Below the pieces are notes generated by a model. That model was not told the DNA's origin, ran no database searches, and saw nothing but the letters and a program-made list of their open reading frames with translations. The position numbers and the translations under genes were made by a program. From Melioribacteraceae bacterium (lineage in GTDB: Bacteria > Bacteroidota > Ignavibacteria > Ignavibacteriales > Melioribacteraceae): a stretch of DNA of 64,000 bases. The stretch spans positions 124,001 through 188,000 of the forward strand of contig CP129490.1 of NCBI GenBank assembly GCA_030584085.1, read 5' to 3'. Shown here piece by piece: positions 138-16,914 of this stretch. Positions within the stretch are counted from its first letter, which is position 1, and each line of letters begins with the position of its first letter.

Positions 138-2279
138 TTAAACTACTTGTTCAGATTTAATAGCGACAAAATTCTTTTCACTTTTGTTCAAACCATGAGT
201 TTCGTTTTCATCGATCTTAAAATTATCTATTAGTTCGTTAAGGTTGTTTGACATATTGTTCAATGATGCGACAAAGTTTGTAATCTTTTCAAATTGACTA
301 TTCATCTCTTCTGTTGCCGAGGCTACTTCCAAAACGCTTGTGTTATTATCCTTACTCACATAAGCAATACTCTGGAGATTCTTTTCAATAGAATCTGAGT
401 TTTGAACTAATTGAACTGTGGAAGCGGAATATTCTTCAACTACGGCAGAAACATTCTCGGTATTTTCAACTAGCTCTATAGAAGATTTAGAAAGAATCTG
501 GCAATCATCCTGAATCAATTTCATCTTTATACTTAAGTTTTGCATAACATCGTTAATTGAGAAGAATGCTTTTCCGGCATCTTCAGCTAAGATAACTCCT
601 TTCTCCACTTCTTTATGTCCTTGGTTCATCGCGGTAAATGCTTCGTCAATAGTTTTTTGAATATCTTTTATTAACTCTCCGATTTCCTTAGTTGCTTTAG
701 AAGACTTCTCCGCTAATTTGAAAACTTCATCGGCGACCACGGCAAAGCCTCTTCCATGCTCACCGGCGCGGGCAGCTTCAATTGCAGCATTTAAGGCAAG
801 CAGATTTGTTTGAGAAGCTATCTCTTCTATAGTTTCGATTATTAATCCAATTTGTTCGGAGTGTTCGCTCATCTTTTTAACTTTCTCAGTAGAATAATCT
901 ACTTTCTCTTTTATGTTATTCATACCGGTAATTGTTTCTTTTATAGTTGTAACACCGTTAAGAGAAACGGTTTTACCTTCATCGGATTTTTCATAACCTT
1001 CTTGTACATTTTTATTTACTACCCGAACGATACTTTCCATTTCACCGACAAGCTTGTTTGATGTATTGATTGAATTGGCTTGATCTTTAGCTCCCTCGGC
1101 TATTCCGTTTATGCCGGAGGACATTTGATCGACCGAATTATTAACAAGCAAAATATCTTCGTTCTGTTTGCCGATTCCTATTGTTAATCTGTTTACGGCT
1201 TCAGCTATATGATCGGAAGCTATTTTTGTTTGCTCGGAAATGATCTTCAGTTGACCCGATCCAGTGTTGACTTCGTGAACGTTTATTCTTGTTTTCTCAA
1301 CTAACTTTCTAAGATTGCTCATAGTCTTTTTGAATGAATCACTTGATTCCTGTAATTGGGAAACCATCATATTGTATGCGTTTTCTATCTTGCTTTCATT
1401 ACCCTTTAAGTTGAGTTTGGAAGGTTCTGCAGTTACTTCAAAATTCACGGTCAAGTCTCCGTCAGATAATCTTTGAAGCGCGTTTTTTAAATCCTTAAGA
1501 TCATGTTCGGCAACAGAGCTGATACCTTTTAGTAAAAGATTATCAAGAGCGAATGTAGTTTTATGCAATCTGAACTGATAAACCACAATTCCGATAAAAC
1601 CAAACAAGAAGATTCCTATATGCAGTAATACAATAGAATATTTTTGACTGTTAGCGGCTGCAAAGAAACTTGAAGCCGGAAGCGTGACGGATATTCCTCC
1701 TCTTATTTCTCCAACTTTGTATCCTTGTTTTTCATGACATGTCATACAGCCTTGTTTAACTAGTAGAGGCTTCATGTATCTGAATACGGATTCGTTTTTA
1801 TTTTCAATCAGCTCAAAACTTTCTTCATTCCCTTCTTCAAAAGATTGTAAAGCTCTAGACTCCCATTCATCAGGTTTGTTTGCCGGTCTAATGGGATTAA
1901 GACTTGTGATATGAAAACCAGTTGCCCCTTCATCTTGGGCAACATTTGAGATTATTCTTGTCATAAACGCTGGATTGATTTTAGTCAACAGCTTTCCGTC
2001 GGATGTAACAATATCTCTTGCAGGGTCTTCCAAATATTCGTTTGGCTTTATTTTGTCGTTAACATAAACATAAACACCACCGTGTTGTGAGTTCCACGTT
2101 CTTGTTATTTCTATATGTTCAAACATTACTCTAGCTTGATCTTCAACCAGATCAGAAAAATGATCTTCAGTTTGCTTGAGATTCATATATAAGGAAGTTC
2201 CAATTAACACTAGCCATACAACTACTGGAACTAATGATGATCTTAAAATCGAAAAATAAATTGAGTTGTTAAATTTCAT
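138..2279 (-). CDS. Methyl-accepting chemotaxis protein with haem-c-binding periplasmic sensor domain
   Basis: Chemoreceptor of 713 aa. A membrane segment at about residues 13-32 is followed by a periplasmic DUF3365/Tll0287-type sensor domain (to about 210) that holds one CxxCH haem-c site (C178, C181, H182). A second membrane segment (about 214-235) and a HAMP-like linker lead to a cytoplasmic signalling domain, with the conserved hairpin around [16 protein letters not shown] near residue 495. The family signals to CheA/CheW, but no che genes lie in this window. It diverges from the Rieske/cytochrome b/octahaem operon and shares its 290-bp upstream region, so I infer that it senses redox state or a nitrogen oxide through its haem. 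ATG start. The MCP and haem site calls are firm; the ligand is unknown. Confidence 0.93.
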
Positions 2280-2412
2280 TTTGTCTCCAATTAACTATGT
2301 TACACATTATTGCGCATATAACGCACCAATTTCTAACCACATCATCGAACAAGTATTAGTAGTGTTTATATGAAAATGTGTATTTCATGAAAATAGACGT
2401 AAACCCGTAAAC

Positions 2413-2425
2413 TGACGATTTTTAA
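2413..2425 (+). promoter_or_regulatory. Candidate activator site TGACGATTTTT upstream of the Rieske operon
   Basis: The motif TGACGATTTTTAA begins 90 bp before the -24 element at 2503. A near copy (TGACGTTTTTTCG, 9178-9190) begins 88 bp before the -24 element of the porin/nap operon. The shared sequence and position suggest a binding site for the NtrC-like activator at 7807-9156. Only two instances are seen, and none is obvious before the kinase gene. Confidence 0.35.
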
Positions 2426-2502
2426 TCATGCCACAAATTCATTTTTTCTCCTAATCGGTGCAAATACTTTATTTAACCAACGTTTTCGATTAAAAACTCA
2501 CA

Positions 2503-2518
2503 TGGCATAAATATTGGG
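2503..2518 (+). promoter_or_regulatory. Sigma-54 (-24/-12) promoter for Rieske/cytochrome b/octahaem operon
   Basis: TGGCATAAATATTGGG matches the consensus TGGCACG-N4-TTGCW with the GG at -24 and exact spacing; the -12 GC is GG here. It lies about 50 bp upstream of the TTG start at 2570. Apart from this and the TGACG motif, I see only a small inverted repeat TGCG-N7-CGCA at 2311-2325 in the 2280-2569 intergenic stretch. Confidence 0.6.
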
Positions 2519-2569
2519 ATATTCACATCTCTTAGTAATGGTTATTCAAAATATCCGGAGGATTTTAAG

Positions 2570-3031
2570 TTGGATAATGACGATAAGAAAAAATCCAGAA
2601 GAGATTTTCTAACTAAATCTCTTTTTGGCGGTGGCTTAGTTGCAAGTTTTGGCGTTTTACTGGTTAATGGATTTAGATTTGTTTTCCCTGAGCAGAAAGA
2701 CAAAAAGCTCCGCAAACTTTTGGTAGGAAAACTTGATGAATTAAAAATTGGCGAAGCAAAAGAAGTTAGTTATGGTACTCAAGATTTATTTCTTGTAAGA
2801 ACCAACGATGGCTTCAAAGTATTTTCCGCGATATGTACACACCTCGGCTGTAAAATTAAATGGGAAGGACATCGTGATAGATTTTATTGCGCATGTCATC
2901 AAGGCGTATTCAGTCCTGCCGGCGAAGTGGTAAGCGGACCCCCACCCAGAGCATTAGATGAATTTAAAGTAGAAGTAGATGGTAATCTAGTTTATATGTG
3001 GATGGAAGAAACTAGTAGAGGATTATCATGA
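2570..3031 (+). CDS. Rieske iron-sulfur protein of a bc/b6f-type complex
   Basis: Rieske [2Fe-2S] subunit of 153 aa. A Tat-like SRRDFL motif (residues 9-14) precedes one membrane helix (about 18-37), followed by the Rieske fold. Cluster box 1 is CTHLGC (C89, H91, C94) and box 2 is CACHQG (C107, H110); the usual CPCH is CACH here. The protein would take electrons from quinol bound to cytochrome b and sit on the periplasmic side of the membrane. The start is a TTG placed 7 bases after a strong CGGAGGA site at 2556-2562. The stop overlaps the cytochrome b ATG (ATGA at 3028-3031), indicating translational coupling. Confidence 0.93.
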   Translation: MDNDDKKKSRRDFLTKSLFGGGLVASFGVLLVNGFRFVFPEQKDKKLRKLLVGKLDELKIGEAKEVSYGTQDLFLVRTNDGFKVFSAICTHLGCKIKWEGHRDRFYCACHQGVFSPAGEVVSGPPPRALDEFKVEVDGNLVYMWMEETSRGLS

Positions 3032-4080
3032 TGAAAAATTTCAAAAGCTGGCTTTTAGAACGAATACCGATTGATACCGAAAAGACTTCTGAAGTAGTTA
3101 AAGAAATTTTTAGTGAACCGATTCCAAGCCACATGAAATATTGGTACTATGCACTTGGCGCCACTCCTTTGATTCTTTTTTTTATACAAGTAGTAACCGG
3201 AATTCTTCTAACGTTTTATTATATACCGTCTCCTGAGATGGCTTATGAAAGTGTTCGATACATTACGGAAGAAGTTAGAATGGGATTTTATGTTAGAGGA
3301 TTGCATAGATGGGGTTCTAACTTAATGGTAATAGCCATTTTTCTTCATATGGTTAGAGTCTTTTTCACACGCGGTTATCGTAATCCAAGGGAGATTAATT
3401 GGGTAATCGGTGTGTTAATTTTTTTAGCAACCCTTACACTTTGCTTTACCGGTTACTCGCTTGTATATAATCAGCTTTCTTATTGGGCCGCTACAGTCGG
3501 CACTAATATGATTAAAGAAATTCCGTTTATCGGCGTGCCTATTCTTGAGTTAATACGAGGCGGGTCTGATGTAACTGCTAATACACTAACTCGTTTCTTT
3601 AATCTTCACATTGTATTTGCCCCGATAATTCTATTCATATTACTTATGGTGCATATTGTTATGGTCCGTCTTCATGGCGTATCCAAACTTGAAGGAAGAG
3701 AAGAAGAGGAAAAAACTTATCCATTCTATCCAGAACATTTTTATCATACACTGATAGTGGGTTTATTTATTTTGGTAGTAATAAGTTCACTTGCCGTAAT
3801 ACTGCCTCCCGGGTTAGGTGAACCTGCAAACCCCGCAGTAACTCCAAACCATATTAAACCCGAATGGTATTTCTACGGTGTTTATTCTTTACTAAAATTT
3901 TTACCTGTCAAATTTGGCATTTATCTAATAGCAGTGTTCATAATTGTCGGGACATTCTGGCCATTTATAGATGAGTTCCTACGAAAGAAACTGCCAAATG
4001 TAAAAGTGCATTACTTCTTCGGAAGTTTATTTGCTGTACTGTTTATATTCTTCACACTATATGAAATGTTAGTTTATTAA
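3028..4080 (+). CDS. Cytochrome b, b6/subunit IV-fused type
   Basis: Integral membrane cytochrome b of 350 aa, the quinol-oxidising core of a Rieske/cytochrome b complex. Likely haem ligands are H93/H107 in one helix and H194/H209 in another. The 15-residue step in the second pair is the b6 spacing rather than the mitochondrial one. The C-terminal third contains the PEWY quinol-site motif (278-281), so b6-like and subunit IV-like parts are fused. No cytochrome c1 or f gene follows; the next gene 30 bp downstream is an octahaem cytochrome that could replace it. A second ATG at 3031 is an alternative start. Confidence 0.95.
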   Translation: MMKNFKSWLLERIPIDTEKTSEVVKEIFSEPIPSHMKYWYYALGATPLILFFIQVVTGILLTFYYIPSPEMAYESVRYITEEVRMGFYVRGLHRWGSNLMVIAIFLHMVRVFFTRGYRNPREINWVIGVLIFLATLTLCFTGYSLVYNQLSYWAATVGTNMIKEIPFIGVPILELIRGGSDVTANTLTRFFNLHIVFAPIILFILLMVHIVMVRLHGVSKLEGREEEEKTYPFYPEHFYHTLIVGLFILVVISSLAVILPPGLGEPANPAVTPNHIKPEWYFYGVYSLLKFLPVKFGIYLIAVFIIVGTFWPFIDEFLRKKLPNVKVHYFFGSLFAVLFIFFTLYEMLVY

Positions 4081-4110
4081 TTATAAAAGTAATTAACGGA
4101 GAGTTCTTCC

Positions 4111-5727
4111 ATGGCTGAAAAAGATTCATTGCAAACACAGAAAATGATAGTGGGGATTTTTAGTATTCTCCTTGTAGTAATTCTTATTATAGTCGCCGGT
4201 GTTGAAATGAAACATTCGGTAAGTGCTGAGCCGATTATTGAAATAAGTGGTGTTAACAAAAGATGTGTTGATTGTCATACCAGCAAAGGTGTTGCGGTTA
4301 AAGCTATTGAACATTGGAAACAAAGTGTTCATGCCGAACAGAATATAAGCTGTATTGATTGTCACACTGCACAAGAAGGCGAGTTTGATGCATTTTATTG
4401 TCCCGAAAGTGATCTTCTTGTGGCAAAACATCCAACACCAAAAGATTGTGCCGAATGTCACGAAACAGAAGTTGCTGAGTTCACAAATAGTAAACATGCT
4501 CATCAATTTTGGTTAATAAGCAACGGTGATAGAGCTGTATTTGAATTCCCAATGGCAACAAAACATGGTTGTGAACAATGCCATAATATAGGTAATATGT
4601 GGCCGGACGGCAGTGTTGGCGAATGCGATGCTTGTCATGCAAAACATACATTTAGTAAAGCAGTTGCCCGCCAGCCTGAAACATGTGGCGAATGTCATGT
4701 TGGCCCGGATCACCCGCACATAGAAATTTATCTTGAATCTAAACACGGTAATATTTTTAGAGCTACCGAGAAAAATATGGATCTTTCATTTACATCGAAT
4801 GATCATGATGAGATTCCAATCGATGTTCCGGTATGTACTACATGTCATATGGATTCGGATGGAAATCAACCAATGACTCACAACGTTAGTGCTCGTTTAG
4901 CTTGGGAATCTCAAGCTCCATGGAGTTACAGAACAGTTTGGGATGATGAAAATCTTGGTGATTGGCAAATGAAACGAGGTAGAATGGAATCAGTATGTAA
5001 GAAATGTCACTCATCGGATTTTGTCGAAGTCTATTTGCTTACTGCAGATTTAGTAAATCTACAATACAATGAAATGAGAAGAGAATTTGTTAGATGGAAT
5101 AAAAAACTTACTGCTAATGGAATAGTTGATAGACTTGAATTGAACGATAAGTTTTATTCAGATCCCGTTCTTAATGGCTGGGACGAAGTTCCAGAAGACA
5201 TGCTTTATAAAGCTTGGCATCATGAAGGCAGAAGATTTAGACATGGTGCAGAAATGATGGGGGCGGATTATACTCAATGGCATGGCGTATGGGAAATGCA
5301 AGAAGCTATGGTTGAAATGTTAACTTGGGCAGCAGAAAAAGGTGATCCGGAAGCAAAAAGATGGGTTGAATCAAATCATCCAGAAAAGTTCATTCCGTTT
5401 GCACTTTATGATATTCCCGGTAATGCCTGGGGTATAAATTCACATTCAAATACTACACCAGTTGTATATAATAATAATCCTGACTATTGGGAACGTATCT
5501 ATCAAAATGTTGAGACAGCTTATCAAGCCGGATTACTATCCGATAAACAGTGGCAGCTTTGGGTAAAACGATATAATGATAAAGAGCATTATCAAGGTAC
5601 AAAGTATAAAGAAGCAAATGATAGTTTGTATCAGTTTTATCTTGATAGAAACAAAAAAGATACTGAAGCATTCACAAAGCAAGCAGTTGAGTTAAAATTA
5701 AAGGGAGAACCGTTCTGGAAATACTAG
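4111..5727 (+). CDS. Membrane-anchored octahaem cytochrome c, hydroxylamine-oxidoreductase-like
   Basis: Multihaem cytochrome of 538 aa. An uncleaved-looking membrane anchor (residues 12-31) is followed by eight CxxCH sites starting at C52, C81, C113, C154, C172, C192, C242 and C296, then a haem-free helical C-terminal half with an HGAEMMGADYTQWHG stretch near 378-392. Eight haems in the N-terminal 300 residues plus a helical tail is the layout of the HAO/epsilon-HAO family, which oxidises hydroxylamine or hydrazine or reduces nitrite. It is not NrfA, which is pentahaem with a CxxCK site. Whether Y387 or another residue is the HAO cross-linking tyrosine cannot be decided by eye; without that link the family is thought to work reductively. 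As last redox gene of the Rieske/cytochrome b operon, it probably exchanges electrons with quinol through that complex. Confidence 0.85.
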   Translation: MAEKDSLQTQKMIVGIFSILLVVILIIVAGVEMKHSVSAEPIIEISGVNKRCVDCHTSKGVAVKAIEHWKQSVHAEQNISCIDCHTAQEGEFDAFYCPESDLLVAKHPTPKDCAECHETEVAEFTNSKHAHQFWLISNGDRAVFEFPMATKHGCEQCHNIGNMWPDGSVGECDACHAKHTFSKAVARQPETCGECHVGPDHPHIEIYLESKHGNIFRATEKNMDLSFTSNDHDEIPIDVPVCTTCHMDSDGNQPMTHNVSARLAWESQAPWSYRTVWDDENLGDWQMKRGRMESVCKKCHSSDFVEVYLLTADLVNLQYNEMRREFVRWNKKLTANGIVDRLELNDKFYSDPVLNGWDEVPEDMLYKAWHHEGRRFRHGAEMMGADYTQWHGVWEMQEAMVEMLTWAAEKGDPEAKRWVESNHPEKFIPFALYDIPGNAWGINSHSNTTPVVYNNNPDYWERIYQNVETAYQAGLLSDKQWQLWVKRYNDKEHYQGTKYKEANDSLYQFYLDRNKKDTEAFTKQAVELKLKGEPFWKY

Positions 5728-5760
5728 GCTAGAACACGTCTTCCTGTTTGTGGGATAAGC

Positions 5761-5797
5761 AAGGCTCTCCAGTTCCTGCCGGGGAGCCTTATATTTT
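5761..5797 (+). terminator. Intrinsic terminator after the octahaem cytochrome gene
   Basis: A ten-pair stem (AAGGCTCTCC with GGGGAGCCTT, one G-T pair) and a ten-base loop are followed by ATATTTTG. It lies 33 bp after the octahaem stop and before the membrane protein at 5851, so the latter is probably expressed separately or by read-through. Confidence 0.7.
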
Positions 5798-5850
5798 GAA
5801 TGGCAAAATAAAAAATAAAATTCGTTTATTAACAAATTGAGTTTACTGCC

Positions 5851-6435
5851 ATGAACAGAAATCAACAAATTATCTTTGTAATAATCTTTGCAATACTTTG
5901 GGGTGTAAGTGAAATTTTTATCGGCGACTTCATTTCAGTTTACTCGTTACCGGTAAGAGGAATAGTGTTAACATCCTTTTCTGTATTTTTTATTGTGTTA
6001 ACAAGAGGAGAAGCTAATTTCTTCGGATCATTACTTTTTCTTGTATTCATAGCCGCTATCCTAAAAGCTGCTTATTTCGGAACGATACTTCATTCGGCAT
6101 TAATTGCAGTTGTCGTGCAAGGTATATTGGCTGAAATTATTTTCTCATCTATAAAAGACTTTAAAAAAGCTTCCATTACAACGGGCATTGTTTTATTGCT
6201 TTATACTTTTCTACATGGTATAGTAGCTCATGGATTTGTCTGGGGCACACATATCTTTATCACATATAAGAATATGCTGCGAGGAGTATTTTTGCTCGAT
6301 CCAATTTCTCAACTACCACTAGAATTTATTCTGATAGTTTTTGGAATACTTAATCTTTTGATCGGACTTCTTGTTGGCTATTTCAGCTTTTACATTTCGG
6401 GAAAGTTGAAAAAATTGCTGAATTTGTACTTTTAA
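5851..6435 (+). CDS. Polytopic membrane protein, paralogue of the 15760-16368 product
   Basis: Hydrophobic protein of 194 aa with about five or six membrane helices. It shares with the product of 15760-16368 an N-terminal WGxxExxIG motif (W17, G18, E21, I24, G25), a PxRG motif (34-37) and a YTxLHG motif near residue 120. No family can be named with certainty. Size and topology resemble substrate-binding (S) subunits of ECF-type uptake systems, which is a guess. It sits between the octahaem operon and the regulator pair, and the paralogue follows the nap operon, so it may supply a cofactor or metal for these enzymes. A terminator lies between it and the upstream operon. Confidence 0.75.
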   Translation: MNRNQQIIFVIIFAILWGVSEIFIGDFISVYSLPVRGIVLTSFSVFFIVLTRGEANFFGSLLFLVFIAAILKAAYFGTILHSALIAVVVQGILAEIIFSSIKDFKKASITTGIVLLLYTFLHGIVAHGFVWGTHIFITYKNMLRGVFLLDPISQLPLEFILIVFGILNLLIGLLVGYFSFYISGKLKKLLNLYF

Positions 6436-6537
6436 GAAAACTTTTAGAATAGGGATTAGATTAAGATTATTTAAATCTGAAGACCATCTTACAAATCAGA
6501 ATTTATTATCTCATTATAGACTTTTGTATATTGCACT

Positions 6538-6553
6538 TGGAATAAATTTTGCA
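6538..6553 (+). promoter_or_regulatory. Possible sigma-54 promoter for the kinase/regulator operon
   Basis: TGGAATAAATTTTGCA has GG and GC exactly ten bases apart, as in -24/-12 promoters, and a full TTGCA -12 box, but AA instead of CA after TGG. It lies about 50 bp before the kinase ATG. If real, the activator would control its own operon. In AT-rich DNA a chance match is possible. Confidence 0.4.
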
Positions 6554-6601
6554 TTAATTGTAATTTATAATAAGACCTTGCAGTATAAATAAGGAGTTTG
6601 T

Positions 6602-7807
6602 ATGCCCGATTCAAAATTTCTTGATAAAAGAAACCTTGTCGATATACTTGATAGTTTAGAAGTTGGTGTTGTATATGTTGATCATGAAAACAGATTTGCT
6701 TTTGTAAACAATGCGGGCGAAGAAATACGAGGAATATGTAGTGAGGAAAGACTTGGGACTTCAATTTTGCAATGTCATACTGAAAGAATACATGGGAAAG
6801 TTCTAGATGATCTAAAAGCGTTTCACTCAGGTGAATACGCCACAAGACATAAGATGATAAAATCTAAGGGAAGATACTTTGATAATAATTACAGTGTTGT
6901 GAAAGATGATGAAGGAAATTTTAAGGGAGTTGTTTTAGTAAGCCAGGATGTAACAGAAAAAGTAGAACTAGAAAAACAACTTAAGAAAGCAAATGAAGAA
7001 TTAGAGAAAAAAATTAAAGAGCGTACAATTGAAATCAAGATGGCATACGAAAAATTGAAGATGGCACAACGTCAATTAATGCAATCAGAAAAGATGGCGG
7101 CAATCGGACAATTTGTTTCCGGCGTTGCGCATGAAATTAATAATCCGCTTGATGGAATTCAGAATTGTATCAGAATGGTATTGGGTGATTTGGATAATAA
7201 AGATCAGGCAGAAGAATATCTTCCGCTTGCAATGGAGGGACTTTTTAAAATAGAAGTTCTAGTAAGAAGACTTCTCGATTATGCAAAACCACATTCTGAT
7301 GAAAAAGTAAAAGTAAATATTCACGATGTAATAGACGATGCAATTGAGTTGACAAAATTTAAGCTGAAGAAAAAAGGTGTGGCGATTCAAAAAAGATATA
7401 ATCACAAACCACTCTTTATTTATGGTGAAACTCATTATCTGAGTCAAGTATTTGTGAACTTAATTCTTAATTCTTTTGATGCTATTGAGCATGATGGTTC
7501 CATAACTATAGAAACCTATTTAGAAAATAATAAAGACGTAAAAATTGTTGTAAAAGATACCGGAGTTGGGGTTTCCGAAGAAGACCAAGCAAAAGTTTTT
7601 AATCCCTTCTTTACAACTAAACAAAAAAATAACGGAACAGGTTTGGGTCTTTATCTTGCCTATAACGTAATTAGTGAACATGCCGGTAAAATTGAGTTTA
7701 ACAGTAAACTTGATGAAGGTTCGGAAATAACAATAATGCTGCCATTTTTTAATGAAGAAAATGTGATCGTAAAACAAGAAGCAGAAAGTCTTGAAATGGA
7801 GAAGTGA
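6602..7807 (+). CDS. PAS-domain sensor histidine kinase, NtrB-like
   Basis: Cytoplasmic histidine kinase of 401 aa without membrane segments. A PAS domain (about residues 8-125) contains an unusual QCH triplet (C58, H59). A coiled coil (120-160) leads to the HisKA domain with phosphoacceptor H177 in AHEINNPLDG and to an HATPase domain with N box (NLILNSFDAI), G1 (DTGVGV) and G2 (GTGLGLY). The stop overlaps the start of the NtrC-like regulator (TGATG at 7805-7809), so the two form a pair. It lies between two sigma-54-type operons for nitrogen-oxide respiration and probably reports redox or nitrogen-oxide status. Ligand unknown. Good AAGGAG ribosome site before the ATG. Confidence 0.92.
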   Translation: MPDSKFLDKRNLVDILDSLEVGVVYVDHENRFAFVNNAGEEIRGICSEERLGTSILQCHTERIHGKVLDDLKAFHSGEYATRHKMIKSKGRYFDNNYSVVKDDEGNFKGVVLVSQDVTEKVELEKQLKKANEELEKKIKERTIEIKMAYEKLKMAQRQLMQSEKMAAIGQFVSGVAHEINNPLDGIQNCIRMVLGDLDNKDQAEEYLPLAMEGLFKIEVLVRRLLDYAKPHSDEKVKVNIHDVIDDAIELTKFKLKKKGVAIQKRYNHKPLFIYGETHYLSQVFVNLILNSFDAIEHDGSITIETYLENNKDVKIVVKDTGVGVSEEDQAKVFNPFFTTKQKNNGTGLGLYLAYNVISEHAGKIEFNSKLDEGSEITIMLPFFNEENVIVKQEAESLEMEK

Positions 7808-9156
7808 TGAACATTGTAGTTGTTGATGATGAAAAAACAAAACGAATAACGATGACCGATGCTCTGCGTAAAGCCGGGTATGATGTAGAATCCTTTGCAT
7901 CATCAATCTTAGCGTTAAGTTATATTGAAAAAAATAACGTTGATGTAGTCGTGACTGATATACGAATGCCTGAAATGGATGGCTTTGAAGTATTGGATAA
8001 AGTAAAATCAATTAATAGAAATATAGCCGTGATTATGATAACCGCATTCGGAACAATTGAATCGGCTGTAGATGCAATGAAAAAAGGTGCTTACGATTAC
8101 ATAACAAAACCTTTCTCTTCAGAACAATTACTTCTGCTCATCCAGAAATATGAAAAAGTAAAATCCTTACTCGATGAAAACATATCTTTAAGAAAACGGT
8201 TAGAAGAAAGATATTCTTTTCACAACCTCGTTGGCAAATCAAAACCCATGATTGAATTGTTCGATCAAATTGAGATGATAAGTGCAAGCGAGATGTCGGT
8301 TTTAATAGAAGGTGAAAGCGGAACCGGAAAAGAAATTGTAGCAAATGCAATTCATTATAACAGCCCAAGAAAAGAGAAACCATTTGTAAAATTAAGCTGT
8401 GCCGCATTAAATGATTCGCTTCTGGAAAGTGAATTGTTTGGTCATGTTAAAGGTGCTTTTACCGGTGCGTACAAAGAAAAGCAAGGACGTTTTGAATTAG
8501 CAAACGGCGGTTCACTTTTTCTTGATGACGTTGATGATATTCCTATGAGTTCTCAAGTAAAACTATTGCGTGTTTTACAAGAAAAAGAATTTGAAAAAGT
8601 CGGCAGTTCAAAACCAATTAAAGTAGATGTTAGAGTAATATGTGCCACCAAAGTTGATCTTTGGGAACAAGTAAAAAAGAATCAATTTAGAGAAGACTTG
8701 TATTACCGTCTTAGAGTAATACCGATGAGAATTCCATCATTAAGAGAAAGAAAAGAAGACATTCCTTTGTTGGTTGATCACTTTGTTAAAAAATCAGGTA
8801 GAAGTGATCTTAGATTTACACCTGAAGCAATTGAATTGATTTCTTGTTTCGATTGGCCCGGAAATATTCGCCAGCTTGAAAATGCAATTTATAGATTAAC
8901 CGCTCTTACAAAAGAAAAGGTAATAACCAAATCAATAATTCCGGAAGATCTGATTTGCGGACAAAAAAGATCTAATGGGATGTCCTTTAATTTCAACGAC
9001 TCCGTTGATCTAACCCAAATAGTTGATAATATCGAAATTGAAGCTATAAATTGGGCACTTGAAAAGGCTGAACGCAATCAGACGAAAGCTGCCGAATTTT
9101 TGAGACTCAAACGCACAACTCTTCGTGACAAAATGAAAAAATACGATATAATTTAG
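7807..9156 (+). CDS. NtrC-family sigma-54-dependent response regulator
   Basis: Activator of 449 aa from the ATG at 7807; a GTG at 7804 would add one residue. Receiver domain with phosphoacceptor D51. AAA+ domain with Walker A GESGTGKE (169-176), the GAFTGA loop that contacts sigma-54 (216-221) and Walker B LFLDDVDD (237-244). C-terminal Fis-type helix-turn-helix with NQTKAAEFLRLKRTTL. With the overlapping kinase it forms a two-component system. Candidate targets are the -24/-12 promoters at 2503, 6538 and 9266. Confidence 0.96.
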   Translation: MNIVVVDDEKTKRITMTDALRKAGYDVESFASSILALSYIEKNNVDVVVTDIRMPEMDGFEVLDKVKSINRNIAVIMITAFGTIESAVDAMKKGAYDYITKPFSSEQLLLLIQKYEKVKSLLDENISLRKRLEERYSFHNLVGKSKPMIELFDQIEMISASEMSVLIEGESGTGKEIVANAIHYNSPRKEKPFVKLSCAALNDSLLESELFGHVKGAFTGAYKEKQGRFELANGGSLFLDDVDDIPMSSQVKLLRVLQEKEFEKVGSSKPIKVDVRVICATKVDLWEQVKKNQFREDLYYRLRVIPMRIPSLRERKEDIPLLVDHFVKKSGRSDLRFTPEAIELISCFDWPGNIRQLENAIYRLTALTKEKVITKSIIPEDLICGQKRSNGMSFNFNDSVDLTQIVDNIEIEAINWALEKAERNQTKAAEFLRLKRTTLRDKMKKYDII

Positions 9157-9177
9157 CTCTGACGAACTTTTGTCTGT

Positions 9178-9190
9178 TGACGTTTTTTCG
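9178..9190 (+). promoter_or_regulatory. Candidate activator site TGACGTTTTTT upstream of the porin/nap operon
   Basis: TGACGTTTTTTCG begins 88 bp before the -24 element at 9266 and matches the motif at 2413. A further CTGACGA copy lies at 9159-9165, and CTGACGA is also present at 2412-2418. An inverted repeat TATCG-N6-CGATA (9212-9227) is a second candidate that has no partner at the other promoter. Confidence 0.35.
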
Positions 9191-9265
9191 CCCTCTATAA
9201 AAGGCTAAAGGTATCGTAAAATCGATAGAATTAACTAAAAACTAGATATTTGACTCGAATTTAGA

Positions 9266-9281
9266 TGGCATTATAATTGTC
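9266..9281 (+). promoter_or_regulatory. Sigma-54 (-24/-12) promoter for the porin/nap operon
   Basis: TGGCATTATAATTGTC matches TGGCACG-N4-TTGCW with exact spacing, GT in place of GC at -12. It lies about 47 bp before the ATG at 9328 and directly downstream of the gene for a sigma-54 activator. Confidence 0.62.
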
Positions 9282-9327
9282 TCTTTTGCTCACTTAATTA
9301 ACCACATTATAAATAAGGAGAGTATAG

Positions 9328-10809
9328 ATGAAAAGAGTACTTACACTAACTTTAGTTCTTTTCGCATTAACGATACTTAATTTATCAGCACAGGATGAAA
9401 AGAAAGTAGAATTCAAACTTAATGGCGTTTACACAGCATGGGGCCAATTTCAAAATGATTTTAGATTAGGCGCTGTTCCTTACGAAGATCACTACATTGT
9501 ACAAATGCTACGATTAAACTTAGCCGCAAACTATGGTCCCGATATTAAAGCTGTTACAAGATTAGATTTAGGACAAGGATGGTGGGGAGTTGATAATGAA
9601 CCACCAACTTATCGTGGTGCAAGTGGTCTTTTTGATGGTAAAGACACTCACTACATGCTTCATGTTGATCAAGCTTACTTATGGTTTAATTTAGATCCAC
9701 TTAGCACTGCATTCTCAGTTGGTCGTTTTAACTGGTCGGCAGGTAACAAATTAGTACTTGATAACAATTATGACGGTATCACCGGTGATATTTCGATAGG
9801 CGAAAGCAAATTGAAACTTGGCTGGGCAAAAATTTATGAAGGCGTAAACGGAATTTCGGATGTAAAACCTGATGGTGCATTACCTTATGGTAACAACGAT
9901 CCGAGAGATGCGAATTTATTTTTAGCATCTTACACAACAAAATTCAGCACTACAAATCTTGAAATATTTGGTATGTATTATAATGATGCCGGTACTGCAG
10001 ATTCAACAACATATACAATCGACGGCTTAAATTATAACAGACCAAGATTTACTCCTCAAGTTACCTCATTGGGAATTATTGGTGTTTCCGGTTCTTCAAA
10101 ACTAGATAAACTCAGCTTAGTGTATGAAGCTAACTACTTATTCGGTAAAGATGATATTGCTAACACAACACACAAAGGATTCCTAAATACTTCAAATGGC
10201 AGTGGTGTTGATCCGCTTAAATATGACATCAACAATGGTGATTTAGCAGGTTATAACTTCTATCTAAAAATGAATTACGCCGTATCCGATGCGGTAACAA
10301 TTGGGTTGGTTGGCGGAATGGGTTCCGGTGATGATGATCCTACATCCGGAAAAGGAAACGTAAATAAACTTAGAACAGCCGGTTTCTTCAACCTAACCGA
10401 AGTATGGGAAGATTCAATTATGCCTGATGAAGAAGGAATTACTCCTCAAGGTTTAGGTGCTCCAAACATTAGAGCATATAGAGAATTAGAAAACACAACA
10501 GCAATACAAGTAAATGCATTGTTCAAAATTACTGCTAAATGGAATTTCTACACTTCATTTACATATCTAAAAGCTACTCAACCAATTTATGCATGGACTG
10601 CTGCCGGACCTGATTTAACAAAGAGTGCTGACGACATAGGTATGGAAATCGATTTCAAAACAGATTATAAATTATTAGACAAACTTACATTGTCCTTTAT
10701 GGGCGGTTATTTTATTCCCGGAACAGGTGCACAATACTTAATTAACGGTAACGATAAATTTGATAAAGCTGCATACGAATTGAAAACAACAATAACATTT
10801 GTATTCTAA
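9328..10809 (+). CDS. Outer-membrane beta-barrel porin of the nap operon
   Basis: Secreted protein of 493 aa with a signal peptide (residues 1-21, ending LNLSAQ) and a body of alternating short strands rich in Y, N, G and aromatic residues, ending in the aromatic ITFVF typical of outer-membrane barrels. No specific porin family can be named. First gene of the operon and 18 bp before the tetrahaem cytochrome, so it may admit nitrate/nitrite or another substrate of the periplasmic reductase. GGAG ribosome site, ATG start. Confidence 0.8.
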   Translation: MKRVLTLTLVLFALTILNLSAQDEKKVEFKLNGVYTAWGQFQNDFRLGAVPYEDHYIVQMLRLNLAANYGPDIKAVTRLDLGQGWWGVDNEPPTYRGASGLFDGKDTHYMLHVDQAYLWFNLDPLSTAFSVGRFNWSAGNKLVLDNNYDGITGDISIGESKLKLGWAKIYEGVNGISDVKPDGALPYGNNDPRDANLFLASYTTKFSTTNLEIFGMYYNDAGTADSTTYTIDGLNYNRPRFTPQVTSLGIIGVSGSSKLDKLSLVYEANYLFGKDDIANTTHKGFLNTSNGSGVDPLKYDINNGDLAGYNFYLKMNYAVSDAVTIGLVGGMGSGDDDPTSGKGNVNKLRTAGFFNLTEVWEDSIMPDEEGITPQGLGAPNIRAYRELENTTAIQVNALFKITAKWNFYTSFTYLKATQPIYAWTAAGPDLTKSADDIGMEIDFKTDYKLLDKLTLSFMGGYFIPGTGAQYLINGNDKFDKAAYELKTTITFVF

Positions 10810-10827
10810 TAAAAAAGGAATGTAAAG

Positions 10828-11187
10828 ATGAAAAAAGTCTATTTAGTAGTTCTCTTCATACTTGCTTTGGGGATTGTTTCCCTTGGCTTTATGGACAATC
10901 AACAATCGGAAAAACATGCTGATGTTGATTGGACTGTCGGATGCCAAGAATGTCACGCAGAAACAACACCTGATATTTTTGAAGATTGGCAAGCAAGTAG
11001 ACATGGCACAGTAAATTTTGGATGTTACATTTGTCATGGTGACGGAGAAGAAACATTTTATCCAAAAGGTACAGATGCACAATGTGGCGGTTGTCATGCC
11101 GGGCAACTTGATTCCTTTGACAATTCTAAATTCACAAGTTGTTTTGATTGTCATAATGGTCACACTTTAAAATTTCACAACGATTAA
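10828..11187 (+). CDS. napM: Tetrahaem cytochrome c, NapM-like electron donor
   Basis: Small cytochrome of 119 aa. One N-terminal hydrophobic segment (residues 4-21) acts as signal or anchor. Four CxxCH sites start at C39, C66, C86 and C105. It lies immediately before napA, 22 bp apart. Known NapM proteins in Desulfovibrio-type clusters are tetrahaem cytochromes next to napA, so this is the likely electron donor in the absence of napB and napC. The symbol is assigned by context and haem count. Confidence 0.8.
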   Translation: MKKVYLVVLFILALGIVSLGFMDNQQSEKHADVDWTVGCQECHAETTPDIFEDWQASRHGTVNFGCYICHGDGEETFYPKGTDAQCGGCHAGQLDSFDNSKFTSCFDCHNGHTLKFHND

Positions 11188-11209
11188 CAGCCTTATTGGA
11201 GGAAACTAA

Positions 11210-13501
11210 ATGAGTTTAAGTAGAAGAGATTTTTTAAGAGCATCTGCATTAACTGCCGCTGCTACAACACTCGGAGTTGGTTCAGTCTTCAATAGCAAAG
11301 TTTTTGCTGCAACCGGAATCGACAAAGATCAGTTTGTACAAGACAGCAAAGGTGTAATGTGGCATAAATCCGTTTGTAGATTATGCGGTGTAGGATGCGG
11401 TGTTATGCTCGGCGTCAAAGATGGTCAGCCTTTCGGAATAAGAGGAGACAAGGAAAATACGGTAAATAGTGGATTGCTTTGCGTGAAAGGATTTTATCTA
11501 AATAAAATGATTACAGCAAAGAATCGTTTACTCTATCCGATGATCCGCAAAAATGGTAAACTTACACGTGCTACATGGGATGAAGCACTAGATCTAGTAG
11601 CATCAAAGTTTACTGAAATTAAAGAAAAACATGGTCCAGATGCGCTTGCTTTTTATGGTTCAGGTCAAGCAGAAACAGAAGAAACTTATGTAGCAAACAA
11701 ATTATTCAAAGGTCATATCGGAACAAACAACGTGGAAGGAAATCCTCGTTTATGTATGGCAAGTGCTGTTGGCGGTTATACAACAACATTTGGTGCGGAT
11801 GAACCGGTTGGTACTTATGATGATATTGAAAAATGCGATATGTTTTTGTTGGTAGGAAGTAATACAGCCGAAGCACATCCTGTAATATATGACAGACTTG
11901 TTGCTCGTAAAAAGCAAAATCCGAATGTAAAAGTTGTAATAATTGATCCAAGAAAAACACCAACCAACAAAATTGCAGACTTACACTTACAAGTAATTCC
12001 GGGCTATGATCTTGCAATAATGAATGCCATAGCAAAGATACTTATTGATAATGGTTATACAGATGAACAATTCATTAAAGATAGCGTAAACTTTAGTGAC
12101 GGCACTAACCCGATTACTTTTGAAGATTACAAAAAGTTCTTAGAAAAATACACACCTGAGTATGCAGCAAAACAATGTGGTGTAAATGCTGAAGATATTG
12201 TTAAAGCGGCTAAATTGTTTGGTGAAACTCCTCGTGTTATGACAATGTGGTGTATGGGTGTTAATCAAAGAGTTGCCGGTGTATTCCTGAACAACCTTAT
12301 TCATAACTTACACTTACTAACAGGTAAGATCGGTAAAGACGGCTGCGATTCATTCTCATTAACCGGTCAACCAAATGCATGTGGTGGTGTGAGAGAAGGC
12401 GGTGGTTTATGCCACCTTTTACCTGGACATAGAGCTGTCGCAAATGAAAAGCACAGAAAAGAAATAGCTGAAATATGGAATGTCCCCGCAGAAAACATTC
12501 AGCCTGCTCCGGGTAAACATACCGTCGCAATGTTTGAGGGGTTAGCAAAAGGAGAAATAAAAGGTATATATATTCTTTGCACAAGTCCGGCACAATCTCT
12601 CCCAAACCTAAACAAGTATCTAAAAGGAATGGAAGACGCATTTATGGTTGTTGCAGAATCATTCCATCCGACCGAAACTTCTCAAATGGCAGACGTAGTT
12701 CTACCAGCTGCTTTCTGGGGAGAAAAAGAAGGTGTTTACGGATGTACAGAAAGAAGATCACAACATATGGCAAAGGCATTAGCTCCAGCCGGTGAAGCAA
12801 GATGGGATGCATTTATTCTTGCAGACATTGCTAAACGAATGGGCTATGGTAAAAACTTCGAACACTTTACATCAGCCGAAGCAATTTGGAATGAATATCT
12901 GAAGACAACTAAAGGAACGGATATGGATTTAACAGGTGCAACTTATACACGACTTAAAAAAGTTCGTGGTTTAAGATGGCCGGTTCCTTCGGAAGATCAT
13001 CCTGGTACTACTCACAGATTTACAGAAGGTGATCCATACTTCCCTAAAGATAAAGCAGCAGGTAAACGTATGTATTTCTATACAAAACCTGATGGCAGAG
13101 CAGTAGTATTTGCTCGTCCGGATAAAGGTCCCGAAGAACAAACCTCTCCTGAATATCCGATAGCATTAACAACGGGGCGTATTCTTGAACAATGGCATAC
13201 AATGTCAATGACAGGCCAAGTTCCCGAGTTAGTGAGGGCAGCGCCCCGACCTTATGTAGAAATCAATCCTGAAGATGCAAAAGAACTTGGTGTAGCTACA
13301 AGAGATAAGGTAAGAATGGTTACAAAACGCGGCTCACTGATTGTTGAAGCAAAAGTTATTGACAGACCACGCAAAGGAACAATTTTTGTCCCTTGGCATT
13401 GGCCTGAAAGCTTGACGAACATTTTAACAATCGATGCGGTAGATCCTGGTTCAAAAGAACCTGAGTATAAAGTTGCTGCTTGTAGACTCGAAAAAGTATA
13501 G
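11210..13501 (+). CDS. napA: Periplasmic nitrate reductase catalytic subunit
   Basis: Molybdopterin oxidoreductase of 763 aa that reduces nitrate to nitrite in the periplasm. Tat signal SRRDFL (4-9). The [4Fe-4S] site is C56, C59, C63 and C91. The Mo ligand is C182 in RLCMAS. NapA-type segments include FSLTGQPNACGG and LLTGKIGKDGC. The cysteine ligand and these segments separate NapA from formate dehydrogenase and NarG. The next genes, napD, napG, napH and tatA, fit maturation and export of this enzyme. A formate dehydrogenase is the main alternative and is unlikely. Confidence 0.95.
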   Translation: MSLSRRDFLRASALTAAATTLGVGSVFNSKVFAATGIDKDQFVQDSKGVMWHKSVCRLCGVGCGVMLGVKDGQPFGIRGDKENTVNSGLLCVKGFYLNKMITAKNRLLYPMIRKNGKLTRATWDEALDLVASKFTEIKEKHGPDALAFYGSGQAETEETYVANKLFKGHIGTNNVEGNPRLCMASAVGGYTTTFGADEPVGTYDDIEKCDMFLLVGSNTAEAHPVIYDRLVARKKQNPNVKVVIIDPRKTPTNKIADLHLQVIPGYDLAIMNAIAKILIDNGYTDEQFIKDSVNFSDGTNPITFEDYKKFLEKYTPEYAAKQCGVNAEDIVKAAKLFGETPRVMTMWCMGVNQRVAGVFLNNLIHNLHLLTGKIGKDGCDSFSLTGQPNACGGVREGGGLCHLLPGHRAVANEKHRKEIAEIWNVPAENIQPAPGKHTVAMFEGLAKGEIKGIYILCTSPAQSLPNLNKYLKGMEDAFMVVAESFHPTETSQMADVVLPAAFWGEKEGVYGCTERRSQHMAKALAPAGEARWDAFILADIAKRMGYGKNFEHFTSAEAIWNEYLKTTKGTDMDLTGATYTRLKKVRGLRWPVPSEDHPGTTHRFTEGDPYFPKDKAAGKRMYFYTKPDGRAVVFARPDKGPEEQTSPEYPIALTTGRILEQWHTMSMTGQVPELVRAAPRPYVEINPEDAKELGVATRDKVRMVTKRGSLIVEAKVIDRPRKGTIFVPWHWPESLTNILTIDAVDPGSKEPEYKVAACRLEKV

Positions 13502-13510
13502 TTAACCCTT

Positions 13511-13541
13511 GTGCTGGGATTGTTACAAGCAATCCCGGCAC
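13511..13541 (+). promoter_or_regulatory. Strong hairpin between napA and napD
   Basis: A twelve-pair stem (GTGCTGGGATTG with CAATCCCGGCAC, one G-T pair) and a seven-base loop lie 10 bp after the napA stop. No T-run follows, so it is not a standard terminator. It may stabilise the 3' end of napA mRNA or dampen expression of downstream genes. Confidence 0.6.
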
Positions 13542-13563
13542 GCTATTGTAAGGAGTATAAGTG

Positions 13564-13821
13564 ATGATTATAGCAAGTATGATCGTAAAAGTTGATGAAG
13601 AAAAAATTAACGATGTTGTTTTAGAATTACAAAAAATTCCAAACGTTACAACACACGGTATTTATAAAAAAGAAAATATTATCGTTCTTGTTGAAGCCGA
13701 ATCAAATGATCAGTTAAGAGATTTGGGAAGATTTATTAACTCTACATTTGACGGAGTAATTGGTACATATCCAACTTTCGTTTCGGCTGATGAAGAATTT
13801 GAAATAGCAAGAGCGAACTAA
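13564..13821 (+). CDS. napD: NapD-type chaperone for the NapA Tat signal
   Basis: Protein of 85 aa (86 from an alternative GTG at 13561). The NapD pattern is visible: an opening IIASMIVKV strand, a central THGIYKKENIIVLVEAE segment and a GTYPTF ending. NapD binds the twin-arginine signal of NapA in the cytoplasm and holds it back until the cofactor is inserted. It lies directly after napA behind the hairpin and an AGGAG site at 13551-13555, and 14 bp before napG. Confidence 0.88.
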   Translation: MIIASMIVKVDEEKINDVVLELQKIPNVTTHGIYKKENIIVLVEAESNDQLRDLGRFINSTFDGVIGTYPTFVSADEEFEIARAN

Positions 13822-13835
13822 TATAGATTTTCAAA

Positions 13836-14351
13836 ATGCTGAACTTCATTCTCAACTATATTGAAAAAGCAGTAAGTGATGTTTCACCGCTTCGCCCTCC
13901 GGGAGCTGTTCCGGAAAAAGAATTCCTAAATAAATGCATCAAGTGCAATAAGTGCCTGCAAGTTTGTCCTTACGATAGCATTATTACAGCTGGGATTGAA
14001 TATGGAAAAAGTTTCGGCACCCCGATTATAAATGCAAGAGATATACCTTGTTATGTATGTATGTTGTGTCCGCCCGTATGTCCAACAGGTGCATTGGATA
14101 ATAATCTCGTTGAAAAAGAAAAAATCAGAATGGGAATGGCGGAAATTAACGAAAACACTTGTATGCCATATGTGGGAATAATTTGCAGAGCATGTTTTGA
14201 GAATTGTCCGATTTTCCGTAAAGCAATTATTCTTGAAGATGAGATGTATCCAAAAGTAATTGAAGAACATTGTATTGGCTGCGGTATTTGTGAACAAGTT
14301 TGCCCTGTTGAAGGTTCGGCGATTATTGTGAAGAGTTACCATAATGTCTAA
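13836..14351 (+). CDS. napG: NapG-like ferredoxin with four [4Fe-4S] clusters, lacking a Tat signal
   Basis: Iron-sulfur protein of 171 aa. Four cysteine sets: C34/37/40/44, C72/75/78/82, C109/117/120/124 and C146/149/152/156. The segments SPLRPPGAVPE, GTPIINARDIPCYVC and CPTGALD are those of NapG. NapG usually starts with a Tat signal. Here the gene begins 14 bp after napD with MLNFILNYIEKAV and has no RR motif, so the protein may remain in the cytoplasm, as NapF does. It overlaps napH by 8 bp and would form a quinol dehydrogenase module with it. Confidence 0.88.
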   Translation: MLNFILNYIEKAVSDVSPLRPPGAVPEKEFLNKCIKCNKCLQVCPYDSIITAGIEYGKSFGTPIINARDIPCYVCMLCPPVCPTGALDNNLVEKEKIRMGMAEINENTCMPYVGIICRACFENCPIFRKAIILEDEMYPKVIEEHCIGCGICEQVCPVEGSAIIVKSYHNV

Positions 14352-15192
14352 ATCGACAAAGTTTTATAAAAATCTAAATAAGTACAGAAAATCAGTTCAA
14401 ATATTTTCAATACTGTTTCTGATTTCTATCCCAATATTAATTTTGTTTGATATTCGATATATAATCGGGAATATGTATTCGATAAGTTTCTGGGACTTGG
14501 ATATTGTTGATCCCGCTATGATGGTTCAAACTATTGTACTTTCAAAGGAGTTTTATTTACCATTATTAATTGCCGCTTTAATTCCAATTGGTCTCGCTTT
14601 AGTATTTGGAAGGGTATTCTGCAGCTGGATGTGCCCATACAACACACTGCTCGAATTACTTGAACCGCGTTGGCTAAAGAAAATTCAAAGAAAAATTTTT
14701 AATGGAAAAAGAAAAAGTAATGTTAATCCGAAACCTTACGTTTATTGGATTATTTATGCATTGCTTATTCTAATTACTCTTGTTATAGGAATTCCTCTTT
14801 TCACTTGGATCTCAATGCCGGGTATAATCTCTTCTGAAATATTCTCGGCAATAATTGGTCTTGGAATTGGAGTGTGTTCTATAGTTTTCATAATTGTATT
14901 TTTAACGGAAGTTATAATCGGTAAAAGATATTGGTGTAAATATTTCTGTCCGGTTGGTGCAACTTTAGCGCTATTCAAAACTAAATATACCATGCATATA
15001 AATCATGATGCAGACACATGTGATTGTACTGCTAACGCTGAACCATGCGGTAATAATTGTCCGCTTGAATTAAACCCAAAAGAGAAAAACCTTTATCCAT
15101 ACTGTTTCAATTGTGGTAGATGTATAAAAGTGTGTGAATTGACTGGCAATAAAGCATTGTCGTTTTCATTCAATAACAAAATTAAAAATTAA
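14344..15192 (+). CDS. napH: NapH-like membrane quinol dehydrogenase
   Basis: Membrane iron-sulfur protein of 282 aa with four or five helices. It has a CSWMCPYN motif near residue 93, a CKYFCPVG motif near 200 and C-terminal cysteine sets ending CFNCGRCIKVCELTG that bind [4Fe-4S] clusters. NapH passes electrons from quinol to NapG and on to the periplasmic reductase. Its start overlaps the end of napG. Together they replace NapC as quinol link. Confidence 0.9.
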   Translation: MSKSTKFYKNLNKYRKSVQIFSILFLISIPILILFDIRYIIGNMYSISFWDLDIVDPAMMVQTIVLSKEFYLPLLIAALIPIGLALVFGRVFCSWMCPYNTLLELLEPRWLKKIQRKIFNGKRKSNVNPKPYVYWIIYALLILITLVIGIPLFTWISMPGIISSEIFSAIIGLGIGVCSIVFIIVFLTEVIIGKRYWCKYFCPVGATLALFKTKYTMHINHDADTCDCTANAEPCGNNCPLELNPKEKNLYPYCFNCGRCIKVCELTGNKALSFSFNNKIKN

Positions 15193-16913: not shown

Positions 16914-16914
16914 A

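Follow-up and report, generated by a model that had tools for sequence, protein, structure and literature searches.

The first genes of this stretch raise the question of what is achieved by an operon that joins genes for a Rieske protein and a b6-type cytochrome b to a gene for an octahaem cytochrome c. The stretch, called the window below, is the whole 64,000-nucleotide segment analysed here (contig CP129490.1, positions 124,001 to 188,000 of the forward strand) from a Melioribacteraceae bacterium of the class Ignavibacteria, whose genome is a single contig of 3.74 Mb. The three genes lie on the + strand and form one operon. The Rieske and cytochrome b open reading frames (ORFs) share 4 bp (3028-3031), and 30 bp (4081-4110) separate cytochrome b from the octahaem gene, so that the tight order given in a preliminary description of this DNA was found again in every coordinate. 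The same order recurs in other Ignavibacteria and in Thermodesulfobacteriota, which indicates that it is not due to chance. Judged from sequence, the products of the three genes probably form a quinol-oxidising membrane complex that feeds an eight-haem nitrogen-oxide reductase. The features of the operon are as follows.

2570-3031, + strand: Rieske 2Fe-2S protein, 153 amino acids (aa), with a twin-arginine N-terminus (SRRDFL) and a membrane anchor (PF00355, 2.3e-13; CTHLGC and CACHQG; hydrophobic segment 14-32)
3028-4080, + strand: cytochrome b, 350 aa, with the b6 part and the subunit-IV part fused (PF00033, 3e-53; PF00032, 1.8e-10; PEWY)
4111-5727, + strand: HAO-family octahaem cytochrome c of 538 aa with a membrane anchor (PF13447, 1.4e-25; eight CxxCH; HAO fold by model)
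4708-4713, + strand: Asp200-His201, putative active site, aligned with Asp267-His268 of Nitrosomonas HAO (NeHAO) (HMMER alignments; D and H in 72/72)
5275-5277, + strand: Gln389, in the place of the HAO cross-link tyrosine by indirect alignment (structural offset, HAOr-HDH and profile alignments; Tyr in 0/72)
5368-5724, + strand: 119-residue C-terminal extension (position 420 onwards), observed in a clade of 19 proteins alone

The Rieske gene starts with TTG, with GGAGG 5' of the start, and its protein carries CTHLGC at residue 89 and CACHQG at residue 107. The haem-ligand histidines of cytochrome b are residues 93/107 and 194/209, the spacing of the second pair being what we take to be the mark of a b6-type cytochrome b, and PEWY is at residue 278. 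The pair thus has the features of a b6-type Rieske/cytochrome b (CTHxGC/CxCHxG, four haem-b histidines with b6 spacing, and PEWY), and the b6-type spacing and fused PEWY domain of the preliminary description are both in place. No cytochrome c1 or f gene was found among the neighbouring ORFs (ORF list, and Pfam for most of them; the search covered this neighbourhood and not the remaining genome), and the octahaem gene occupies that place, again as first described.

The b6 and subunit-IV parts of cytochrome b make up a single protein in Ignavibacteria but two separate ones in the Thermodesulfobacteriota group. In an alignment of 21 sequences, the position of the Cys35-like cysteine of b6, the site for the extra haem ci, is Ala in 7/7 fused Ignavibacteria proteins, that of the window among them, and the cysteine is retained in 12/12 split cytochromes b and in the two other fused ones (loci L093 and L094). 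PEWY is retained in 19 of the 21, with PPWY in L093 and L094. In a comparison with seven further cytochromes b of these genomes, the octahaem-linked ones group together as a single clade (97/94). The window genome has a sole PF00033 cytochrome b (E 1e-10), that of the complex, and this is likewise so in 6 of 10 other genomes checked. Three NrfD-like proteins are encoded elsewhere in the window genome, one of them some 5 kb away from a gene for a haem-copper oxidase, which suggests that an alternative complex III may serve oxygen respiration and that the Rieske complex is kept for other acceptors.

Fold and active-site residues of the octahaem protein

All eight haem sites of the octahaem protein are CxxCH, and it matches PF13447 with 90.5 bits (cut-off, 21.9). 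Searched as a single sequence against solved structures, it finds 4qo5, which we take to be IhOCC of Ignicoccus hospitalis, at 9.5e-26, followed by HAO and HDH proteins; with a 72-sequence profile, 4qo5 is again the best sequence match (2e-81) and NeHAO is found at 9.5e-45. Alignment A1, which was shallow, gave a structure model of low quality (mean pLDDT, 48.4), and the model used is one from alignment A2 (mean pLDDT, 78.7). The best fold match of the latter is also 4qo5 (Z 25.1, rmsd 3.0, 354 residues aligned), and the top nine structural rows are all HAO-family entries with Z from 20.2 to 25.1, including HAOr (6h5l, the Kustc0457/Kustc0458 complex; 21.5), NeHAO (1fgj; 20.9), and HDH (6hif; 20.6), with the HAO and HDH entries as a whole at 20.2 to 21.5. 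Octahaem nitrite reductases and NrfA follow at Z of about 9 to 10. The long aligned ranges of the HAO-family structures stop near model residue 414 to 417, and the fold evidence thus covers the protein apart from the C-terminal extension and the anchor. By this model the octahaem protein belongs to the HAO fold, and the alignment with HAO families proposed at the outset leads to HAO by fold and profile rather than to another multihaem family. The protein has no CxxCK, and NrfA models match it with 16 to 17 bits (cut-offs, 595 and 692.5). Its match to the NCBIfam hydrazine dehydrogenase model is distant (66.1 bits; cut-off, 900).

Besides the Asp-His pair, residues W369, H370, R374, M382, D386, W390, and G392 are invariant in 72/72 aligned octahaem proteins. 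The Asp-His residues of HAO have been named as functional (PMC3814345). The invariance of Asp200 and His201 speaks for catalysis.

The place of the cross-link tyrosine was approached by two routes. In the structural route, model residue 414 pairs with NeHAO residue 492, and if the last helix is assumed to be free of gaps, NeHAO Tyr467 falls on residue 389. In the sequence route, HDH Tyr462, presumably the cross-link tyrosine, meets HAOr Trp484 in the HDH-HAOr alignment, and a profile alignment, weak and not significant alone, places Trp484 on residue 389 of the window protein. When 54 residues of 6h5l were searched on their own, 6h5l was the sole match. Over the 72 proteins, column 389 holds W in 36, Q in 21, N in 6, H in 6, and F in 3; tyrosine is found in none, as the check for this residue suggested in the preliminary description brought out. 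By this indirect mapping, and with Tyr387 nearby, the protein lacks the haem-cross-linked tyrosine of P460-type oxidative HAO and HDH and shows the combination seen in reductive HAO (eHao and HAOr), an HAO fold without that tyrosine. Because this tyrosine is apparently missing, the sequence favours a reductase over a hydroxylamine oxidase.

The N-terminus has one strong hydrophobic segment, residues 13-31. The preliminary description called it an uncleaved anchor; the segment itself is there, and the look and conservation of the N-terminus suggest that it may stay uncleaved. A hydrophobic N-terminus is present in 21/21 rows linked to a Rieske gene but also in 67/79 other octahaem rows and is not distinctive. 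The other end of the protein is distinctive: 117 to 119 residues follow position 420 in complete clade members, and at most 47 do so in the other A2 rows.

Spread and surroundings of the operon

The nearest named relatives are Ignavibacteria genomes from metagenomes, whose octahaem proteins are 96% and 86% identical to that of the window. In a sample of 395 genomes of the window's phylum, 32 had any match at 1e-20, and 6, including the window's own genome, had near full-length matches at 71 to 100% identity; G031, which belongs to the window's genus, had no match. A second sample of 395 genomes was taken from the phylum of G395 (Thermodesulfobacteriota; the genome of locus L005). Of these genomes, 109 had a match at 1e-30, and 10 had a near full-length one at 56 to 62% identity; fragments at 60% or above were present in four more genomes (G539, G448, G753, and G657). 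The window protein belongs to a long-stemmed clade of 19 members (SH-aLRT, 100) in a tree built from 100 octahaem proteins. The tree is a quick one, and two long-branch groups (7 and 12 rows) may be falsely joined in it. Also from the window's phylum is a remote group on a long stem (L024-L036; 12 tree rows), whose octahaem proteins have about 410 to 434 aa.

Same-strand cytochrome b or subunit IV genes adjoin the octahaem gene in 19/19 clade members. The Rieske gene is visible in 16 of the 19, and in L003, L004, and L089 the contig ends before the Rieske position. The genes therefore co-occur in related genomes of both Ignavibacteria and Thermodesulfobacteriota, and the lack of such co-occurrence, which the preliminary description named as grounds for giving up its proposal, was not encountered. 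The Rieske label (21 rows, including L093 and L094) changes twice on the tree against a shuffled mean of 19.3, and 0/500 shufflings were as low. L093 and L094 lie outside the 19-member clade in the octahaem tree yet adjoin Rieske and cytochrome b genes. Their cytochromes b sit within the single linked cytochrome b clade, and the starred branches of the octahaem tree force two changes of the Rieske label; the pairing may thus have arisen once or twice. A clear NrfH-like tetrahaem gene lies beside 30 of the 100 octahaem rows (34 by a looser label), which suggests that these relatives also take electrons from quinol.

Other combinations of such genes were also seen. Second cytochrome b loci with an adjoining eight-haem protein are present at L158, L159, and L160, with a Rieske gene seen in L158 and L159; the eight-haem protein of L158, the only one of the three scanned, has 761 aa and TPR repeats. 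At L161 (G144; 159-4655), a second Rieske/cytochrome b pair lies between hexahaem and 11-haem proteins with no evident c1. At L043, a second, shorter octahaem protein of the HAO family (16794-18113) is encoded close to the same cluster.

In the window, the operon is surrounded by the following genes.

138-2279, - strand: chemoreceptor encoded divergently, its sensor domain of the haem-c Tll0287 type (PF11845, 4.7e-25; PF00015, 5.3e-41; one CxxCH)
6602-9156, + strand: PAS histidine kinase and sigma54-type response regulator (kinase PF02518, PF00512, PAS; regulator PF00158, PF00072, PF02954)
10828-11187, + strand: tetrahaem cytochrome, called NapM-like for its place and its number of haems, and perhaps an electron partner (four CxxCH; weak multihaem matches below cut-offs; recurs beside the complex)
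11210-13501, + strand: periplasmic nitrate reductase, NapA-like, 763 aa, with a Tat signal (NCBIfam NapA, 665.8 bits, cut-off 904; Pfam molybdopterin domains)
13836-14351, + strand: 4Fe-4S protein, probably NapG-like to judge from its position (Fer4 families)
14344-15192, + strand: membrane ferredoxin, probably NapH-like to judge from its position (PF12801, 3.4e-16)

The downstream order is a small membrane protein, the PAS kinase, the sigma54-type regulator, a porin-like protein (named from its look, with no Pfam match), and the NapM-, NapA-, NapG-, and NapH-like proteins, and it is found again in relatives as far as their stretches extend. NapM- and NapA-like genes are downstream in 6/6 Ignavibacteria loci that reach far enough (the window, L002, L041, L043, L044, and L045). 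The kinase and regulator pair is conserved in relatives and probably controls the cluster. Two membrane-like proteins of about 200 aa (5851-6435 and 15760-16368) have no Pfam match, and relatives also have the first of them next to the complex.

The window genome encodes NrfA at full length (588.9 bits; contig positions 111376-112656), with an NrfH-like gene adjoining; the distance to the Rieske gene, which lies downstream, is about 14 kb. A replacement of NrfA by the octahaem complex was therefore rejected for this genome, in which the complex has a rival as candidate nitrite reductase. In L002, which is near-identical to the window, NrfH (164.8 bits; cut-off, 134.2) and NrfA (637.2 bits; cut-off, 595) are directly upstream of the Rieske gene. 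Contig positions 112657-126569, between nrfHA and the Rieske gene, hold two genes, one resembling type III restriction genes and the other encoding part of a DNA methylase domain. The operon is part of a nap/nrf cluster, which, given these genes in the gap and the adjacency in L002, an insertion seems to have split in the window genome. The preliminary description had seen the operon but had missed NrfA and NrfH and the membership of the nap/nrf cluster.

The surroundings differ in Thermodesulfobacteriota. NrfA was found in 0/13 Thermodesulfobacteriota-type genomes carrying the operon, whose completeness is not given; they comprise 11 of the window clade (one labelled Deltaproteobacteria) and those of L093 and L094. 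The complex may stand in for NrfA in these genomes. In those Thermodesulfobacteriota stretches that were read, none of the genes next to the complex was labelled NapA-like. Downstream of the complex, L083, L086, L088, and L089 encode a large molybdoenzyme (about 1000 aa), and the two scanned (L083 and L088) match the type II DMSO reductase alpha model with 742.6 and 735.6 bits (cut-off, 984.75). The type II DMSO reductase family includes selenate, chlorate, and nitrate enzymes.

A Tll0287 sensor domain accompanies the complex in two lineages with different outputs. Encoded divergently from the operon, it is part of a chemoreceptor in the window and L043 and of a histidine kinase in the 8/8 Thermodesulfobacteriota loci that reach far enough upstream (L083-L088, L090, and L092). 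It was not seen in L002, L044, and L045, and L041 has only a 165-residue MCP fragment. The domain is not exclusive to the complex, as it is also found beside three octahaem loci without a Rieske gene (L109, L134, and L143).

Terminal reductase or electron relay

In the reading preferred here, to which we would give an even chance, the three proteins are a complex that oxidises quinol and conserves energy, with the octahaem subunit acting as the terminal reductase of nitrite, NO, or hydroxylamine. The Rieske protein, the b6-type cytochrome b, and the anchored octahaem protein in place of c1 or f would make up a menaquinol-oxidising complex. Quinol would be oxidised at the PEWY (Qo) site, one electron would pass via the Rieske centre into the octahaem chain, and the other would return through the b haems in a proton-motive Q-cycle. 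Haem 4 (Cys154-His158), together with Asp200 and His201, might then reduce a nitrogen oxide formed in the nap/nrf pathway, be it nitrite or NO or hydroxylamine that leaks out of it. The genes, their motifs, the Asp-His pair, the conserved operon, and its nap/nrf surroundings can be read from the sequence and the fold from the model, whereas the formation of the complex, the electron path, the Q-cycle, the type of quinone, the substrate, and the direction of flow are what we infer.

A reductase is favoured because of the HAO fold, the Asp-His pair, the missing cross-link tyrosine, the 19/19 linkage to cytochrome b or subunit IV, and the nap neighbours, and also because NrfA was not found in the Thermodesulfobacteriota-type genomes. 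It is favoured further because HAOr of Kuenenia, which has no tyrosine cross-link, makes NO from nitrite (PMC12485887). The missing tyrosine has likewise been argued to be a sign of nitrite reduction in Caldithrix abyssi (PMC5317091). Several points weigh against the preferred reading. The mapping of the tyrosine is indirect, and Tyr387, only two residues from position 389, is present in 68/72 proteins. NrfA is encoded in 6/7 Ignavibacteria genomes with the complex, and the step from nitrite to ammonium is already covered there. A possible true electron acceptor, the NapM-like tetrahaem protein, is encoded nearby, and no reported activity was seen, in the literature read, for a member of the 19-protein clade.

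Mainly because of the presence of NrfA in those genomes, a serious rival is that the octahaem protein is a non-catalytic electron relay, a multihaem stand-in for c1 or f through which electrons from quinol reach NapM and NapA, and possibly other periplasmic reductases; we consider this possible but somewhat doubtful. The position of the octahaem gene agrees with it, as do the NapM- and NapA-like genes downstream in all six Ignavibacteria loci that could show them and the fact that the complex holds the sole PF00033 cytochrome b of the window genome. A path from Rieske/cytochrome b to NapM is also one of those proposed for C. abyssi (PMC5317091). A relay, however, would hardly need Asp200, His201, and the seven other residues invariant in 72/72, NapA could be fed by the NapG- and NapH-like proteins, and the Thermodesulfobacteriota stretches read have no labelled NapA-like gene beside the complex.

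That the octahaem protein reduces a substrate beyond the nitrogen cycle, such as sulfite, tetrathionate, selenite, or tellurite, appears improbable. Among NCBIfam models, the cytochrome b comes closest to ExtP, which belongs to a selenite/tellurite operon (232 bits, under the cut-off of 290), and the molybdoenzyme adjoining in four Thermodesulfobacteriota loci could be read in the same sense, but the neighbours in Ignavibacteria are nap- and nrf-like. A complex running in reverse, in which the octahaem protein would oxidise hydroxylamine (or NO or hydrazine) and deliver electrons into the quinone pool, is very improbable, since HAO family membership and the distant hydrazine dehydrogenase similarity are set against a cross-link tyrosine that seems absent by the indirect mapping and against neighbouring genes that are for reductases (ammonia-oxidation genes were not searched for); hydroxylamine oxidation was therefore rejected as the leading interpretation. 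Of the two directions left side by side in the preliminary description, nitrite reduction with quinol electrons thus fits the missing tyrosine, and hydroxylamine oxidation into the quinone pool does not.

If the octahaem subunit is the reductase, Ignavibacteria would have two routes for the reduction of nitrite or its intermediates, one that conserves energy and one that does not. NrfHA is not known to conserve energy at its reductase during nitrite ammonification, and a Rieske/cytochrome b complex with its own octahaem reductase could conserve energy at the nitrite-reducing step. A bolder possibility, less likely than not, is a self-contained proton-pumping quinol:nitrogen-oxide reductase, with a Q-cycle and a catalytic cytochrome c subunit, that may extend across Ignavibacteria and Thermodesulfobacteriota and work alongside NrfHA in Ignavibacteria. 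A conserved operon outside anammox bacteria would also offer a simpler system of three or four genes for testing the idea advanced for the anammox complex R/b-3.

Comparison with known systems

The names eHao and HaoCA are, as we use them, those of octahaem proteins with an NrfH-like quinol dehydrogenase. The window protein shares with this type its HAO family, the absence of the cross-link tyrosine in the NrfH-linked relatives aligned, and a presumed role as a quinol-fed reductase. It differs in that Rieske and cytochrome b genes, and not an NrfH/NapC-like tetrahaem gene, adjoin the octahaem gene, which would make energy conservation by a Q-cycle possible, and in its clade-specific C-terminal extension. 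IhOCC is the best match by sequence and fold but has Asp-Val where the window protein has Asp-His. HAOr of Kuenenia (Kustc0458) resembles the window protein in its fold, its Asp-His pair, and its lack of a tyrosine cross-link, and it forms NO from nitrite (PMC12485887); it is described as soluble with the partner Kustc0457, and IhOCC (Z 25.1) matches the window protein more closely than it does (Z 21.5).

The anammox complex R/b-3 of Kuenenia (Kuste4569-4574) is described as having a b6-like cytochrome b, a Rieske protein, no cytochrome f, an HAO-like octahaem protein, and a putative NAD(P) oxidoreductase (PMC12954380, PMC12485887). The likeness to the window operon lies in the first four of these, the octahaem protein of R/b-3 being likewise proposed to reduce nitrite; the likeness is one of published description. 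R/b-3 has a further multihaem subunit besides the putative NAD(P) oxidoreductase (PMC12954380, PMC12485887), and no NAD(P) oxidoreductase was recognised among the window neighbours at 138-15192, of which the proteins at 5851 and 9328 have no Pfam match. Related arrangements reported elsewhere are a Rieske/cytochrome b complex with added multihaem cytochromes in Methanoperedens (PMC4683180), Rieske/cytochrome b genes beside a tetrahaem gene and HAO beside a NapC/NrfH-type gene in a Parcubacterium (PMC5220378), and hao within a nap cluster, without NrfA, in Deferribacter (PMC6896113).

The closest published case is C. abyssi, in which genes for a Rieske protein (Cabys_2558), cytochrome b (2557), and eHao (2556) are consecutive and next to nap, as reported in 2017 (PMC5317091). 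The stretch Cabys_2564-2556 combines Rieske, cytochrome b, and a Tyr-less octahaem protein with napM, napA, napG, and napH and, as reported, no c1 nearby, and electrons from Rieske/cytochrome b were proposed to pass to NapM or directly to eHao (PMC5317091). The likeness again follows the published description. C. abyssi is reported to have an alternative complex III and to be without NrfA, in contrast to the window genome, and its gene order differs, the window having regulators and a porin between the operon and nap (PMC5317091). The proposal of such a complex outside anammox and nitrifying bacteria, made in the preliminary description, is therefore not new, as much the same one was already in print. 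Among the literature matches listed, which covered few subscription papers, no title or abstract opening named the operon in Ignavibacteria or Thermodesulfobacteriota. The arrangement of Rieske, cytochrome b, and octahaem genes and a similar proposal for it are thus already known from C. abyssi, and a related complex from anammox bacteria; new here are the conserved clade with its extension, the spread into Thermodesulfobacteriota, the coexistence with NrfHA, the cysteine difference in cytochrome b, and the accompanying sensor.

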